Assembly (NCBI GenBank): GCA_026414705.1
Contig: JAOAIM010000008.1
Coordinates: forward strand, 11,533 to 47,581
DNA: 36,049 bases
Origin: Verrucomicrobiia bacterium
Lineage (GTDB): Bacteria > Verrucomicrobiota > Verrucomicrobiia > Limisphaerales > JAOAIM01
Reading direction: 5' to 3'
The notes under the pieces were generated by a model, which saw only the letters and a program-made list of their open reading frames with translations, was not told the origin of the DNA and did not search any database. Shown piece by piece: positions 20,186-33,027 of this stretch. Both the position numbers and the translations under genes were made by a program. The stretch's first letter is position 1. Each line of letters starts with the position of its first letter.

Positions 20186-22114
20186 TCACGCGCAACGGCG
20201 TGCGGGTTTGGTGGCGCGGAGCAGCATGCTCTGGCGCGCGGGTCGTTTGCGCGCAGCCGCAGCGCGGCAGGCGCGGGCGGTGCTGGCAGCGGGGGCGGCT
20301 TCGACGATAACCGAGTTTCGGCCCGCGCGGCCCGGATACACACCATCTTCGCGGTCGCCGAGCAGGCCGCCGTAAAGGGCTTCAACAAATGACGGCGCGT
20401 CGGCGACGGCTTTGAGGGTGCGATTGATCTGTTCGACGAGTTGTTCGGTCCATTCTTTCACGCGCGCGCTGGGGGCGATGTCGGTCTGGCCGAAGAAGCG
20501 GAAAGTTTCGGCGATGCCGTCGAGGGCGGAGGCGCGGGCGGCGGCGGTGATGGGGCCGCGCGAGAAGGCTTCGTCGGTCGAGGCGACGGTGACGGCGTCC
20601 ACGCCCAGCGAGGCGCACAGGGCGGCGTGGAGGGCGGTGGTGGCGGCGGAGCGAACTTTTTCCTCGTCGTGGGTCATGAAGCCGATGGGTTCACCGGGCC
20701 AGATGGGGAAATCGGCGACGGCCTGGAGGGCGCGGATTTTGGCGCAGTTGTAGTCCACGTAGTTCTGCTCCATCCAGCCCTGAACGAGGATGTGCGGGCC
20801 GTGGCACAGGAGCGGTTTGAGGATGGGTTTGGCGCCGAGGCGGCGGCCGAGTTGGGCCATGATCAACATGCCGGCGAAGGCCTTGTGCGGCGGCACGCCG
20901 GCGAGTTCCTCGTTGGTGGGGATGTCGAAGGGCATTCCGAATCGCGCGGCCAGGCGCACGGCTTCGACGCCGTCCACGGTGAGCCGGGCGGGGTCGGTGC
21001 CGCCGCAAAGCGAGCCGTAGGGGATGTTGATCTTGGTCAGGTCGGCGCCGAGATAGGCGGCGAGCACGACGATTTCGGGCGTGTTGAGGCCGCGATGGGC
21101 GCGCACGCTCCAGAGCGTGGCACGGTCGAGGGAGCGTTTGATGAGGGCGAGGTTGGCGTAGGTGACGGGTGTGCCGTCTTCGGCGTTGGTGAGGTAGCCG
21201 TCGAGCAGGCCCTCAGTGCGCGCGCCCCAGGCCGGGTCAAAGTGCAGCACTCCGTCGGCACCGCGGCTTTCGGCAACCTTGATGTGCAGGCCGTCCATCA
21301 TCGGGCAACCGGTGCCGTATTGGATGAACACGAGCGGTTGCTTGCGATCATGCTGGAGGACGCGCGGGTGGAACTGTTGTTGGGCCTGTTCGATGCGCCG
21401 GAAGTAGGCGGCGATTTCGTCCTGGGACAGTTGCCGGACGGTGGGTGGGCAGATGTTCTTCTGGAAGAAGTCCACCACGACCGGGTCGCAAAGTGCGAGG
21501 TATTCGCGGGTGAACGGCAACGCGGTGTAATCCTCGACCGAGCCTTTGACCTCGCGGAGTTGGGCCTCGGTAATGCGGGCGCGGCGGATGCCGGGGGAGG
21601 TTTTGCCCTCGGTCCATTCGAGGATGTTGTCCACGATGCGGTCGAGGTAACGGCGCGTTTCGGCGAGCTTGACGCGGTAATCGTGGCGGAAGGGGAAGGC
21701 GGGTTTGTGTTTGACCGGGTGCGTGACGTGGCGGGCCAGCTCCGGATTGCGTTCGATGAGGGCGTGGATTTCCTCGATGGTCGTGTGGGGGCCGTAGCCG
21801 CCCTCGAAGCCGAGGCGTTTGGCCAGTTCGTCGGTCACGGCCATGCCGCCAATGGCGACGCGGATTTTGCCGAAGACGCCCTGGCGTGTGAGCACGTCGC
21901 GCACGCGCTGGAAAAGCTGCTCGACGCCGTAGCCGACGGTGCGCCCGATGAAGATCATGTCCACCTGCTCGCGCAGGGCGGCCTCGCCGATTTCCTCCAC
22001 CGTGATGTCCGGGGGCAGGAGCACGCAGGTGTAACCGAGGGCTTCGAGCCGACGGCGGATGAGCTTGAGTCCCGCGTCGTGCACCGGGTCGAGGGGAGCG
22101 AGCAGGATTTTCAT
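20186..22114 (-). CDS. Cobalamin-binding protein fused to a lysine-5,6-aminomutase-like TIM barrel
   Basis: A 642-residue putative B12-dependent mutase. Residues 1-135 form a B12-binding Rossmann domain with PVHDAG (His12 as presumed cobalt ligand) and GGMAVTDELAKRLGFEGGYGP, which recalls the KamE subunit. Residues about 235-610 form a barrel resembling KamD (PLVFIQYGTG, ARTEGLLDGY, and a C-terminal region ending VEALYGGLLGD). In KamE the PLP-binding lysine is 11 residues after the ligand histidine (His133, Lys144); here that position is Leu23. The last 35 residues are basic and variable. The start at 22114 overlaps the 82-residue gene by four bases (ATGA). The reaction is unknown: a carbon-skeleton or amino-group shift is expected from the fold. 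Confidence 0.72.
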   Translation of the reverse strand: MKILLAPLDPVHDAGLKLIRRRLEALGYTCVLLPPDITVEEIGEAALREQVDMIFIGRTVGYGVEQLFQRVRDVLTRQGVFGKIRVAIGGMAVTDELAKRLGFEGGYGPHTTIEEIHALIERNPELARHVTHPVKHKPAFPFRHDYRVKLAETRRYLDRIVDNILEWTEGKTSPGIRRARITEAQLREVKGSVEDYTALPFTREYLALCDPVVVDFFQKNICPPTVRQLSQDEIAAYFRRIEQAQQQFHPRVLQHDRKQPLVFIQYGTGCPMMDGLHIKVAESRGADGVLHFDPAWGARTEGLLDGYLTNAEDGTPVTYANLALIKRSLDRATLWSVRAHRGLNTPEIVVLAAYLGADLTKINIPYGSLCGGTDPARLTVDGVEAVRLAARFGMPFDIPTNEELAGVPPHKAFAGMLIMAQLGRRLGAKPILKPLLCHGPHILVQGWMEQNYVDYNCAKIRALQAVADFPIWPGEPIGFMTHDEEKVRSAATTALHAALCASLGVDAVTVASTDEAFSRGPITAAARASALDGIAETFRFFGQTDIAPSARVKEWTEQLVEQINRTLKAVADAPSFVEALYGGLLGDREDGVYPGRAGRNSVIVEAAPAASTARACRAAAARKRPARQSMLLRATKPARRCA

Positions 22115-22359
22115 GGGCGCAGCCAGGTGTAACGGTCGCCGGGTTTGTTGACGTAACCGCGCGCGCGGAAGTGCGCGCCCGGCCCGTTGAAGTCCAGGGA
22201 CACGATCACGTGCCGGTCGAAGCCCATTGCGGCCATGAGTTGGCCGATGACCTCGCGCGCCTCGCGTTCGCTCTCGCACAGCACGAAGCTTTCCACGTCC
22301 ACCGCGTCCACGATGCGGTCGCGGGGGTTGACCGGGGCGGTTTCAGGCGACGCCGGCAT
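22111..22359 (-). CDS. 82-residue protein of unknown function in the B12 cluster
   Basis: A small acidic-to-neutral protein that I do not recognise. It has no membrane segment or cysteine cluster (one Cys at about residue 28). The pattern VESFVLCESEREAREVIGQL followed by HVIVSLDFNGPGAHFRARGY suggests a compact alpha/beta fold. It overlaps the PLP-enzyme gene by 17 bases at its 5' end and the B12 gene by four bases at its 3' end, so translation of all three is coupled and roughly equal amounts of protein are likely. By position it could be a small subunit or chaperone of the mutase; it does not look like OraS of ornithine aminomutase as I recall it. Confidence 0.75.
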   Translation of the reverse strand: MPASPETAPVNPRDRIVDAVDVESFVLCESEREAREVIGQLMAAMGFDRHVIVSLDFNGPGAHFRARGYVNKPGDRYTWLRP

Positions 22360-23803
22360 GTTTGCAGGTGATGTTGATCAGACCCACCAACGCCCGAATT
22401 ATCAACCGCGTTTCGGTTTCGAGCAAGTGGCCGTCCGGGTCGAGCGTGCCCAGGCCGGGCGAAATGAAAATGTTCGCGTCGTAGGCGATGGTCGGGATGA
22501 TGCCCATTTGCGCCATGCCGCTCTGGAAGAGGTTTGTGCCCGCATACATGTCCTCGATGGTGAAGATGGGGATGCCGGGGCGGTCGGCCTTCCAGGTGTT
22601 CTCGTAATTGATCTCGATGGCGAGGGAATTGAGGCTTTTGCAGATGCGCAGGTCGGGTTGGAAATGTTGGGGCAGGGCGCGAAACTCCTCCTGCACGATG
22701 GCGAACAGCCGGTCCAGCGGCGCGGTCATCATCTGCGGGCGATCGCGCAAGATTTTCAGCGCGGCAATCAGGCCCACGAGCGCCTCCTTGCCCGGATCGT
22801 TGGTGACGTAGGCCGCCTTGCCGTAGGAAAAGCCCGCCCCGGAGCGATCGGAGTGATAGCCCAGCGCGCGGCGAATCGGCACAAGCACGTCCTCGCGTCC
22901 GATGATCAACCCCACGGTCGGCGCGCCGGCGGCCTTGTCCATCGAATACACCATCACGTCGGCGCCGAGTTTGCGGGGGTCGGCGCCGATGAAGGGCACG
23001 CCCCAGGCGTTGTCCACGATGTAGGGCACGCCGTAATCGCGCGCGAGCCGGGCCAGGCCCTTTTGCAGCAGCGGCGTGCCGTCGGCGTCGCGCTCGCCGT
23101 ATCCGTAGCCGGGCGTGTCGTAGCCCAGGGAGGTGACCGCGGTCAGGAACGGCGCGTGACGGGCGGCGGTTTGTTCGAGGCGGGCGAGGGTTTCCGCCGC
23201 GTCCACGCCGCCCAGCAGCACGGCGGGATGTTGTTTGATGCCGTGGATTTCGTAGCGTGCGCCTTCCATGGGCACGAACACGGCGTCGGTGTTTTCAAGG
23301 CGTTTGCCCGAAAAGCCCAGTTCGCCCGCCGTCACGCCCCGGTCGGCGAACAAATCTTTGAACCGCGGCGGAAAGGGGCGTCCGTAACCGCCCTGGTGAT
23401 GGAGATGGCGCTCCAGCGGCGCGAGGTAACGGGCGCGATAGCTCGGGCCGCGCCCGGCAAGCGGCGGGGTCACCAGCGTGTCGAAGCTCACCCACAACGC
23501 CGCTTCGCAGGTGTTGATCGGCGCGGCGTCGAAACCGTCCCCATAGACGTCTTTGACCAGTTCGCGGATTTCCTCCACGAGGAATTTGTTTTCGATGACC
23601 TTGCGCGAGGCGGTCTCGATGGCGCGAGCGACCTCGGCGCTCAGGAGCGCGTGGCAACTGGACACCGCGCCGGTCAGGCCGATGTTGCCGCGCAAGGCGG
23701 CGGGCAGGCCGATTTCGTCGGCGAACTTTTTGGCCTCGGCGTAGATGGCCGGGGCGCTCTTGTGCAATTGCTTGTAGAACTGGAAGCGGTATTTCGGCGG
23801 CAT
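22343..23803 (-). CDS. Fold-type I PLP-dependent enzyme, SelA-like
   Basis: A 486-residue PLP enzyme. The cofactor aspartate is Asp264 in YIVDNAWG and the Schiff-base lysine is Lys290 in YSMDKAAGAPTVG, a pattern close to the SGDK region of SelA-like proteins. TGAVSSCHALLSA (44-56) and YGDGFDAAPINTCEAAL (87-103) would contact the PLP phosphate and substrate. I start it at the ATG at 23803 (MPPKYRFQF); the 16 residues upstream look random. It overlaps the next gene by 17 bases and follows the small unknown gene by 50 bases. No tRNA(Sec), selD or selB lies nearby, so a selenocysteine role is not supported. A racemase, lyase or transaldimination partner for the B12 enzyme is possible. Confidence 0.78.
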   Translation of the reverse strand: MPPKYRFQFYKQLHKSAPAIYAEAKKFADEIGLPAALRGNIGLTGAVSSCHALLSAEVARAIETASRKVIENKFLVEEIRELVKDVYGDGFDAAPINTCEAALWVSFDTLVTPPLAGRGPSYRARYLAPLERHLHHQGGYGRPFPPRFKDLFADRGVTAGELGFSGKRLENTDAVFVPMEGARYEIHGIKQHPAVLLGGVDAAETLARLEQTAARHAPFLTAVTSLGYDTPGYGYGERDADGTPLLQKGLARLARDYGVPYIVDNAWGVPFIGADPRKLGADVMVYSMDKAAGAPTVGLIIGREDVLVPIRRALGYHSDRSGAGFSYGKAAYVTNDPGKEALVGLIAALKILRDRPQMMTAPLDRLFAIVQEEFRALPQHFQPDLRICKSLNSLAIEINYENTWKADRPGIPIFTIEDMYAGTNLFQSGMAQMGIIPTIAYDANIFISPGLGTLDPDGHLLETETRLIIRALVGLINITCKHAGVA

Positions 23804-23853: not shown

Positions 23854-24288
23854 TCAGCGGCGCTCGAACCGGATTTTGCGGCCCGGGGCAAAGTGCAACT
23901 CGCGTCCGGTGCGGCGCTGCGCGACACCGACGATGATGTTGAGGTGATTCGGCTCGTGCGTTTCGTCAAAGCCCAGCACCTTGCCGATCGGTTCGCCGTC
24001 GAGCAGCAACGTCTCGCCCACCAACACGCAGCCTCCGCGCGCGACCTCGAAGAACGCCAGATACGCGATGCGGTCGGCGGTTTGGCCGGGCTGCTTGTCG
24101 GTTTCGTCGGTGGCGATCAACTCATGGATGGAGTGTTGCGGCAGCGCGCGCGAATAGGTGGGCATGAGCTTGAGGCCGCGCGCGTCGTGCATCGAGTCGA
24201 GCACGGTGACGACCTCGCCCTCGACCGGTCGGTTGGCCGCGTAGGTGGCGAGGGTGACGAAGCGCGTGGTGGCGATGGGCGAGGACAT
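23854..24288 (-). CDS. Conserved small protein of unknown function (possibly DUF6917)
   Basis: A 144-residue soluble protein. It shows beta-rich stretches (FVTLATYAANRPVEGEVVTVL, GGCVLVGETLLLDGEPIGKVLGF) and the motif DETHEPNHLNIIV near the C-terminus. I have a weak memory of this pattern as DUF6917, a family without function. A metal site from the cluster of His/Glu/Asp (DETHEPNH) is possible but not shown. It lies 36 bases below the probable lipoprotein and 50 bases above the PLP enzyme on the same strand, so it belongs to the B12 cluster by spacing. Confidence 0.6.
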   Translation of the reverse strand: MSSPIATTRFVTLATYAANRPVEGEVVTVLDSMHDARGLKLMPTYSRALPQHSIHELIATDETDKQPGQTADRIAYLAFFEVARGGCVLVGETLLLDGEPIGKVLGFDETHEPNHLNIIVGVAQRRTGRELHFAPGRKIRFERR

Positions 24289-31497: not shown

Positions 31498-31543
31498 AGG
31501 TGGTGTCCCCAAATCAATCTATCCGCATCCGTTGATATAACGG

Positions 31544-31659
31544 TCTCATGTAGAGTGGCTGAGGGACTGGCCCGATGACGCCACGGCAACCGGTTGAAGG
31601 CGCAGCTTCAACGTCCAGGTGCCAATTCCAGCCCCGGCGGGTGCCGGGGAAAAATGAGA
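31544..31659 (+). promoter_or_regulatory. SAM-I (S-box) riboswitch aptamer
   Basis: All S-box landmarks are present. P1 pairs TCTCAT (31544-31549) with ATGAGA (31654-31659). The core reads GAGGGACTGGCCCGATGA (31561-31578), followed by CGGCAACC. P3 pairs GTTGAAG (31593-31599) with CTTCAAC (31606-31612). The joining element is GGTGCCAATTCC, and P4 pairs CCCCGGC (31632-31638) with GCCGGGG (31643-31649). It binds S-adenosylmethionine and normally turns off genes of methionine synthesis or uptake when SAM is high. The gene it controls here is annotated by homology as threonine synthase, which is the surprise. Confidence 0.95.
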
Positions 31660-31677
31660 AGCGTGCGCAAATCGTGC

Positions 31678-31708: not shown

Positions 31709-31767
31709 GTTTGCCCCGCGCCGGAGGGCTGCGTCGGGGGTGAAGCGATTTGCGAAAAAGTCGAGCT

Positions 31768-33027
31768 ATGGAAAAACACGATGGTTTCATGAGGGCACTC
31801 AAGTGCCGCGAGTGCGGGCGGGAATACCCGCTGACCGCGACGCATGTGTGCGAGTTTGATTTCGGGCCGCTGGAGGTGGCCTACGATTACGAGCGGATCA
31901 AGCGCGTGCTCACGCGCGCCGCGATTCAGTCCCGGCCCAAGTCCATGTGGCGTTACCGTGAATTGCTGCCGGTGGCGCACGAGCCAACCGTGGGCCTGCA
32001 GGTGGGCTTCACGCCGTTGATCCGGGCTGACCGGCTCGCCAAAAAACTCGGCATCCGCGAAGCGTGGATCAAAAATGACGCGGTCAATTTCCCCACGCTC
32101 TCGTTCAAGGACCGCGTGGTGAGCGTGGCGTTGAGCCGCGCGCGCGAGCTGGGCTTTGATACCGTGGCGTGCGCCTCCACGGGCAACCTGGCCAACGCGG
32201 TCGCCGCCAACGCCGCCGCCGCCGGCTTGAAAGCCTACGTCTTCATCCCGGCGGACCTCGAACAGGGCAAGATTCTCAACTCGCTCATTTACGGCGCGCA
32301 CGTCATCGGCATCAAGGGCCATTACGACGAGGTCAACCGGCTCTGCGCCGAGATCGCGGGCAAGTTCGGCTGGGCGTTTGTGAACGTGAACATGCGGCCC
32401 TACTACGCCGAAGGCTCGAAGAGCTTCGCCTTCGAGGTCGTCGAGCAACTTGGCTGGCGCGTGCCGCAACACACCGTCGTGCCGATGGCCTCCGGCTCGT
32501 TGCTCACCAAAATTCACAAAGGCTACCAGGAATGCATCAAGCTGGGCCTGGCGCCCGAAACGCCCTACCGCGTCCACGGCGCGCAGGCCACCGGCTGCTC
32601 GCCCATCTCCACCGCGCACAAGGCGGGGCTGGACTTTTTCAAGCCCGTCAAGCCCGACACCATCGCCAAGTCGCTGGCCATCGGCACGCCGGCCGACGGC
32701 TTCTACGCGCTGCGCGCCATCAAGGAAACCGGCGGCGCGGCCGATGACGTGACCGACGACGAAATCCGCGACGCGATGCGGTTGCTGGCCGAGACCGAAG
32801 GGATTTTCACCGAGACCGCCGGCGGCGTGACCGTGGGCGTGACGCGCAAACTCATCGCCTCGGGCAAAATCGCGCCCCAGGATTCGGTCGTGATCTGCAT
32901 CACCGGCAACGGCCTCAAGACTCTCGACGCGGTCAACGGTTACCTGGGCAAACCGCGCGAAATCCGGCCCAGCCTCAGAGAATTTGAAGCGCTCATGGCG
33001 CAGGAGGAAAAGGCGTTGAAAAGTTGA
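31768..33027 (+). CDS. Threonine-synthase-like PLP enzyme under SAM control (possible homocysteine synthase)
   Basis: A 419-residue fold-type II PLP enzyme. The Schiff-base lysine is Lys114 in TLSFKDR, the phosphate/substrate loop is ACASTGNLANAVA, and MASGSLLTKIHKG and ITGNGLKTLD follow. The N-terminal zinc-ribbon-like region has Cys13, Cys16 and Cys28, but the fourth position is Asp (CEFDFGPLE). Threonine synthase converts O-phosphohomoserine to threonine. A SAM-I riboswitch and the two genes behind it, a sulfur carrier and a NIL protein, fit methionine synthesis better, so I infer that this paralogue may replace the phosphate of O-phosphohomoserine with sulfur to give homocysteine. The ATG at 31768 is chosen over a TTG at 31750. 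Ordinary threonine synthase remains possible. Confidence 0.85.
   Translation: MEKHDGFMRALKCRECGREYPLTATHVCEFDFGPLEVAYDYERIKRVLTRAAIQSRPKSMWRYRELLPVAHEPTVGLQVGFTPLIRADRLAKKLGIREAWIKNDAVNFPTLSFKDRVVSVALSRARELGFDTVACASTGNLANAVAANAAAAGLKAYVFIPADLEQGKILNSLIYGAHVIGIKGHYDEVNRLCAEIAGKFGWAFVNVNMRPYYAEGSKSFAFEVVEQLGWRVPQHTVVPMASGSLLTKIHKGYQECIKLGLAPETPYRVHGAQATGCSPISTAHKAGLDFFKPVKPDTIAKSLAIGTPADGFYALRAIKETGGAADDVTDDEIRDAMRLLAETEGIFTETAGGVTVGVTRKLIASGKIAPQDSVVICITGNGLKTLDAVNGYLGKPREIRPSLREFEALMAQEEKALKS

Follow-up and report, generated by a model that had tools for sequence, protein, structure and literature searches.

A rare bacterial operon encoding a split and rearranged relative of the KamDE and OraE aminomutases that appears to lack their canonical pyridoxal phosphate anchor

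The gene at positions 20186–22114 (minus strand; ATG at 22114, stop at 20186) of a 36,049-nucleotide stretch of Verrucomicrobiia DNA, here called the window, raises the question of whether an enzyme assembled from the parts of a B12- and pyridoxal 5'-phosphate (PLP)-dependent aminomutase can dispense with PLP. Its 642-residue product comprises an N-terminal B12 domain, a linker, a C-terminal KamD-like barrel and a tail. The original prediction, made from the sequence of this locus, described such a fused mutase, and the fusion is borne out by the open reading frame (ORF), the profile searches, hhalign and Pfam; the architecture is well supported. With a probability of about one half, the protein represents a third lineage of KamDE/OraE-type adenosylcobalamin radical mutases, permuted and split, and most likely working without PLP. 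Coordinates are window positions, and residue numbers refer to the 642-residue mutase unless another protein is named.

The B12 (Rossmann) domain spans residues 1–126 (21737–22114, minus strand). Pfam PF02310 matches residues 10–109 with an E value of 2.7e-7, slightly under its curated cut-off, and a Pfam search of the mutase at E 1 gave no other domain. A profile of the B12 part built from six sequences retrieved KamE chains first from the PDB (E 1.6e-11), followed by OraE (5.4e-9). The NCBIfam models NF052385 (23.7 bits, cut-off 280) and NF040743 (22.5 bits, cut-off 800) match the mutase in the B12 domain, and NF052384 gave no match to it at E 1. The domain carries the cobalt-ligand motif D9-x-x-H12-x-x-G15; His12, located in PVHDAG, is kept in 23 of 23 sequences (the window included; one of the 24 alignment rows lacks this region). 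The canonical PLP lysine is placed 11 residues after the histidine, at His133/Lys144 of KamE and likewise in OraE. The corresponding residue of the mutase is Leu23, as the original prediction had read from the single sequence, and leucine occupies the position in 23/23 family sequences. The sole invariant lysine of the domain, Lys17 at His+5, is generic because the B12 mutase 2yxb has its equivalent too. In the AlphaFold model, superposition of the B12 domain placed 8t0v_D of lysine 5,6-aminomutase (LAM) first, with a Z score of 17.9 and a root mean square deviation (RMSD) of 2.6 over 125 aligned positions.

The barrel comprises residues 258–601 (20312–21343, minus strand). The barrel part of the six-sequence profile found KamD in the PDB at E 2.9e-4. 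With a barrel-only profile, just three PDB matches fell under E 0.1, all of them KamD chains (8.1e-4, 8.2e-4 and 0.0098), and two further chains followed with E values of 0.51 and 1. PF09043, the Pfam model of the barrel in KamD, was recognized at E <= 1 in 14 of 24 family members (best E 7.8e-4) and gave no match, below the Pfam cut-off, with the window mutase. Alignment of 13 family members by hhalign with two KamD and one OraE sequences yielded a probability of 94.4% and an E value of 8.7e-8 over residues 258–601. As a control, 78 ORFs from six loci were scored, some of which are surely not genes; with three members of the mutase's own family set apart, the two KamD proteins scored 50.7 and 47.8, OraE scored 30.6, and the top score among the remaining 72 was 28.4. 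The OraE score is near that of the best other ORF, so it is the KamD scores, and not OraE by itself, that carry the barrel link. The structure prediction and superposition on a known aminomutase that had been proposed as a check aligned model residues 269–594 with OraE chain 3kp0_A (Z score of 14.1, RMSD of 4.6, 241 aligned positions); the barrel is of low confidence in the model, so that part of the check counts as support only.

The B12 domain also resembles methyltransferase corrinoid proteins such as MtgC and 1y80 by sequence and, with tied Z scores, by fold, as would be expected if the protein were a corrinoid (methyl-transfer) or other non-mutase protein that borrows the fold. Such an assignment is very improbable, because the family profile finds KamE nearest, the barrel is KamD-like, the small protein encoded upstream is predicted to fold like a dimerisation domain, the counterpart of the catalytic OraE residue Glu338 is invariant, and the Bacteroidota operons include a KamB-like gene.

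The residues expected to hold PLP in the barrel were mapped on 24 family members aligned with MAFFT, with the hhalign pairing as a second view. In KamD, according to the available text of PMC3958899, Arg184, Ser189 and Arg268 bind the PLP phosphate, Ser238 is the ligand of the pyridine nitrogen, Tyr263 stacks on the ring and Asn299 binds the phenolic oxygen (O3'). The Arg184 position is occupied by Asp or Asn in the family (4 and 20 of 24 members, respectively) and the Arg268 position by Gly or Ala (4 and 20). The segment G187-Q188-S189 is replaced by W-(G/E)-A in 24/24 members, with Trp at the Gly187 position and Ala at the Ser189 position throughout. The loop carrying Tyr236 and Ser238 is absent by MAFFT, and in the hhalign pairing Ser238 is aligned with Arg341. 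None of the four ligands Arg184, Ser189, Arg268 and Ser238 is retained (0/24), which extends the earlier observation of the missing lysine. By these alignments, it is well supported that the canonical PLP anchor has been lost.

The residues associated with radical formation present a different picture. OraE Glu338 is reported to promote Co–C cleavage, and an active-site Glu aids turnover in methylmalonyl-CoA mutase and glutamate mutase too (available text of PMC4413051). Glu338 was located in OraE of Acetoanaerobium noterae (locus L056) through the primer-encoded TPDEGRN context in the same text (PMC4413051); over the later portion of the chain, residue numbers in the papers exceed those of the L056 protein by 3. 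Glu515 of the mutase aligns with the Glu of TPDEGRN and is invariant in 23/23 sequences. The Co–C cleavage machinery thus seems, as far as aligned residues can tell, to have been retained, and the canonical PLP anchor not.

Upstream of the mutase, an 82-residue protein is encoded at 22111–22359 (minus strand), its stop overlapping the mutase start codon as ATGA. This ORF, a further addition to the original prediction, is probably a stand-alone KamE/OraE-type dimerisation subunit, judging from its predicted fold. The AlphaFold model has a predicted local distance difference test score (pLDDT) of 81. VIA-align ranked six entries of LAM or D-ornithine 4,5-aminomutase (OAM) first, with Z scores of 6.3–6.9, followed by an unrelated protein at 5.7; the matched regions are KamE 11–89 (33–84 in 1xrs) or OraE 489–578. 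Foldseek placed LAM/OAM chains at ranks 1–6 and 8 with E values of 0.03–0.07, none significant at 0.001. The Pfam OAM_dimer domain lies at 22–97 and 21–97 of canonical KamE proteins and at 507–583 of OraE, the same stretches as those of the fold matches. Z scores below 8 may reflect common arrangements; the argument lies in the consistency of the LAM/OAM ranking. OAM_dimer itself (PF16554) matched 1 of 13 family members, at a non-significant E value of 0.22–0.23, and an unrelated Pfam family outscores it in another member (E 0.0016). The best local hhalign match fell in the dimer domain with both OraE and KamE, short of significance.

This assignment bears on the claim that the domain order is reversed. 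In OraE, Pfam places the barrel at 66–446, the dimer domain at 507–583 and the B12 domain at 604–720, so the B12 domain is C-terminal there and the order in the mutase is indeed the opposite. If the 82-residue protein is the dimer domain, however, the layout is dimer | B12–barrel, as compared with barrel | dimer–B12 in KamD | KamE and barrel–dimer–B12 in OraE. The arrangement would then amount to a circular permutation that spans the border between two genes, and 'circularly permuted' would be the better term than 'reversed'.

The minus-strand gene order is DUF6917, fold-type I PLP enzyme, 82-residue protein and mutase. The DUF6917 protein (PF21891, 144 residues) is encoded at 23854–24288 and accompanies the mutase constantly across the sampled genomes; a search at E 10 matched no PDB chain, and a search of the open-licence PubMed Central (PMC) literature found no paper on it. 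The PLP enzyme, of about 486 residues, is encoded at 22343–23803, and the end of its gene overlaps the start of the 82-residue gene. The order was followed in 25 distinct loci, 21 from Bacteroidota and 4 from Verrucomicrobia, obtained as tblastn matches and in some cases cut by contig ends (L051 repeats L027). Where the contig reaches, the PLP enzyme is present in 24/24 loci, the small protein in 24/24 and DUF6917 in 23/23. The Lys/Arg/Ala-rich C-terminal tail of the mutase occurs in the family alignment in the four Verrucomicrobia only. No cobalamin riboswitch was found at the gathering threshold in the window and six loci.

Within the order, 2 of 58 genomes, counting that of the window, contain full-length relatives of the mutase, and among 387 genomes of the phylum the window's own alone does; the matches listed for the other 41 matching phylum genomes all lie in the B12 domain except for one short stretch at 487–551. 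A scan of species genomes gave five loci from Verrucomicrobia and Bacteroidetes metagenome-assembled genomes, one of them cut by a contig end. The mutase was further detected in 8/395 Bacteroidota genomes, 16/245 genomes of one class (some partial) and 8/146 of one order, in samples that overlap. Among the 395 genomes, those with DUF6917 are precisely the 8 that carry the mutase. Canonical KamD (PF09043) did not exceed its cut-off in 118 Bacteroidota genomes, where one weak match was seen; a plasmid search with the mutase gave no match, and a PHROGs search gave none. Among the open-licence PMC papers listed for aminomutases, no title or opening of an abstract describes this family. The mutase operon is rare among bacteria; it is well conserved, and the existing family models do not cover it. 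As regards canonical kamDE, two plasmid-labelled replicons, NZ_CP154629.1 (2.63 Mb) and NZ_CP084075.1 (2.11 Mb), look chromosomal by size and by the genes presumed to surround kamDE.

The constant PLP enzyme offers another route by which PLP might enter the reaction, in that the mutase could receive its substrate as an aldimine which this neighbour provides or shares with it in a complex, the cofactor residing in the partner. Its presence upstream in every locus that reaches it fits such an arrangement, as does the finding that 15 of the 16 genomes carrying it (among 217 of the class) are mutase-positive; in the remaining genome (G870) 391 bases separate the gene from the contig end downstream of it. 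The proposal is nevertheless unlikely. The enzyme matches Aminotran_5 at E 3.4e-6, above the cut-off, and its Asp265 and Lys291 (counted from codon 23806) are invariant in 12/12 aligned sequences; from the fold, we take Asp265 to be the aspartate that binds the pyridine nitrogen and Lys291 to be the Schiff-base lysine. Because it has this invariant pair of its own, it looks like an ordinary fold-type I enzyme and a separate member of the pathway. An aldimine would be hard to present to a B12 domain through a buried fold-type I pocket, and a fixed partnership is expected for consecutive pathway steps as well.

The Bacteroidota loci carry two additional genes. A dehydrogenase of the meso-diaminopimelate (DAP) type is present in 19/19 loci in which the contig reaches it (its frame is interrupted in L086); it passes TIGR01921, meso-DAP dehydrogenase, with 296–325 bits against a cut-off of 180.6 in the five genomes checked, and its nearest PDB entry is 3wb9 (E 8e-141). 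A KamB-like match lies downstream of the mutase in 19/19 Bacteroidota loci that reach this region, in one case after two inserted genes. Against NF052386 (cut-off 210), the KamB-like genes of five Bacteroidota loci scored 210.4, just over the cut-off, and 188.0, 187.3, 183.3 and 174.3 bits. The gene upstream of the dehydrogenase is a GntR/FCD regulator in both Bacteroidota loci scanned, and ORFs of the size of such a regulator occupy this place in many others. A KamC candidate in L089 was rejected as an ordinary MutS (1051.7 bits).

Compared with LAM (KamD/KamE; NF052384/NF052385; 1xrs, 8t0v, 9q1a), the system shares the barrel, the B12 domain with its cobalt-ligand His motif, the dimerisation domain by predicted fold and, in Bacteroidota only, the KamB-like gene. 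It differs in being apparently circularly permuted, in being split differently, in lacking the PLP lysine and the phosphate and pyridine ligands, and in falling far below the NCBIfam cut-offs. With OAM (OraS/OraE; NF040743; 3kow) it shares the three domain types, the dimer domain again by predicted fold, as well as counterparts of OraE Glu338 and Tyr187, whereas OraE combines barrel, dimer and B12 domains in one chain. The OAM operon ord-ortA-ortB-oraS-oraE and the new operon have the same order of dehydrogenase, small protein, PLP enzyme, small subunit, mutase and reactivase. In A. noterae (L056), ord, ortA, ortB and oraE are named by NCBIfam, and oraS, a MutL-like gene and a racemase are presumed from position. 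By hhalign, no relation was found between DUF6917 and OrtA, the PLP enzyme and OrtB, or the small protein and OraS, and the Bacteroidota dehydrogenase is of the DAP dehydrogenase type, with only a remote match to Ord (E 1e-6). The likeness to the OAM operon is best described as an analogous pathway logic, not as homologous parts. Glutamate mutase, methylmalonyl-CoA mutase and 2-hydroxyisobutyryl-CoA mutase, which are PLP-free B12 mutases, resemble the new protein in the B12 fold, the His motif, the Lys at His+5 and the lack of a PLP lysine; in the PDB sequence search, however, its barrel finds KamD rather than them.

A scheme can be proposed in which the 82-residue dimerisation subunit and the B12–barrel subunit form the enzyme. 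Substrate binding would close the barrel under the B12 domain, the Co–C bond would break, and the resulting deoxyadenosyl radical would drive a 1,2-rearrangement of the substrate, which may be held by the invariant Arg299, Arg338, His340, Arg341 and Lys361 beside Tyr366 and Asn401. PLP would not be anchored as in KamDE, and the reaction would most likely proceed without it. The product would pass to the co-encoded fold-type I PLP enzyme and DUF6917, and in Bacteroidota the DAP-type dehydrogenase and the KamB-like reactivase would belong to the same, probably catabolic, operon. More tentatively, and with somewhat less confidence than in the lineage as such, a B12 plus B6 aminomutase barrel may have been converted into a B12-only radical mutase that serves an undescribed rearrangement and amino-acid pathway comprising the fold-type I PLP enzyme, DUF6917 and an amino-acid dehydrogenase.

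Several observations weigh against the proposal of a third, PLP-free lineage. The amino shift depends on PLP in both known members, KamDE and OraE, and the genes are arranged in parallel with those of the ornithine aminomutase operon. The barrel is only 16–19% identical to KamD and OraE, which makes the mapping of single residues uncertain, and the AlphaFold model of the mutase, built with six sequences, is of poor quality (mean pLDDT 51). In the fold comparison of the B12 domain, KamE shares its rank with 4r3u, 1y80, OraE and others, all within 1 Z. As to the small protein, hhalign against OraE and against KamE was not significant, a PDB sequence search returned no LAM or OAM match, and the fold match to the dimer domain, at Z below 7, has no sequence support. 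KamB was matched in 0/4 Verrucomicrobia genomes, the window's own (90% complete) included, and the DAP dehydrogenase exceeded its cut-off in 0/4 of them, with one weak partial match. Ser238 is nearly dispensable in LAM (available text of PMC9105233), and its loss alone therefore proves little. The counterpart of KamD Tyr263 is Tyr366, invariant in 24/24 members, and KamD Asn299 pairs by hhalign with Asn401, also invariant in 24/24, though one column off in MAFFT. With these two residues kept, a loss of PLP would be odd. Finally, Gly372 and Thr373 are invariant in 24/24 members, and by the alignment Gly371-Gly372-Thr373 could constitute a new phosphate loop.

Taken together with a lysine of the barrel, the last points permit the reading that PLP has been re-sited, the aldimine lysine having moved into the barrel and the Gly371-Gly372-Thr373 loop binding the phosphate, so that the protein would be a genuine B12/PLP aminomutase acting on a new substrate. 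The original prediction had suggested a search for a replacement lysine near the barrel mouth. Lysines 137, 279, 361, 411, 433 and 459 are conserved in at least 90% of the family, in addition to Lys17, and the best candidate is Lys361, which is invariant in 24/24 members, lies five residues before Tyr366 and aligns with OraE His182. The latter is an active-site residue that touches the substrate carboxylate (available text of PMC3958899). A candidate thus emerged, placed by alignment and not at the KamE position. The parallel with the OAM gene order and the KamB-like reactivase gene also speak for re-sited PLP. Every phosphate-ligand side chain of KamD is absent, however, and Lys361 could equally hold the substrate carboxylate as His182 does. 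Re-siting is accordingly regarded as possible but doubtful, and a permuted mutase without PLP is preferred.

KamDE and OraE keep PLP on a tether to the mobile B12 domain, and the tether is released as this domain swings. With a natural relative that lacks it, the role of the tether becomes open to direct test. The locus also reveals a conserved four-gene unit of DUF6917, fold-type I PLP enzyme, dimer subunit and mutase, which gives DUF6917 a context.

The nature of the substrate is touched upon by the dehydrogenase and by further neighbours. The meso-DAP dehydrogenase family is presumably specific for the D-centre. The substrate of OAM is D-ornithine, whereas LAM accepts D-lysine and also L-beta-lysine (available text of PMC3958899). 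A D-centre dehydrogenase would therefore fit a D-configured diamino acid. In two Verrucomicrobia the gene immediately downstream of the mutase is lysA (L026 10807–12102 and L027 12157–13452), and in one Bacteroidota locus lysA precedes the dehydrogenase by about 1 kb (L046 4120–5367); those of L026 and L046 are over the lysA cut-off. In three Verrucomicrobia (L025, L026 and L027), a divergent AceE-like E1 gene is inserted between DUF6917 and the PLP gene. In L026 (429–10572), the E1 scores 233.7 bits (aceE cut-off 859.9) and is accompanied by prpB, prpC and prpD, hinting at a pathway that yields propionyl-CoA. The AceE-like E1 and prpBCD were rejected as core parts of the operon, since AceE-like genes lie within it in 3/4 Verrucomicrobia and the window's genome gave two short matches only. 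D-lysine, DAP and 2,4-diaminobutyrate were considered as substrates from the DAP-type dehydrogenase, lysA and the methylcitrate genes of L026, and this evidence was too thin to choose among them.

Metal transporter genes were observed near the mutase in some loci. A CorA-type gene lies between the small protein and the mutase in L045 (10651–11565), an ORF of similar size occupies the equivalent place in L079 (10855–11781), and MgtE-like and NRAMP genes are located between the mutase and kamB in L089 (1824–4325). They are possibly concerned with cobalt or magnesium supply.

Elsewhere in the window, an S-adenosylmethionine (SAM) riboswitch (RF00162, 84.4 bits) occurs at 31543–31660 on the plus strand, upstream of 31750–33027. 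We take the latter to encode a threonine-synthase-like protein and the small ORFs after it to be ThiS/MoaD-like and NIL-like, and the group looks like a methionine/homocysteine synthesis operon. A SAM riboswitch is also present in L029 (5754–5866, minus strand), where it separates the mutase operon from a divergent cluster presumed to comprise metY, metX, aspartate kinase and asd.

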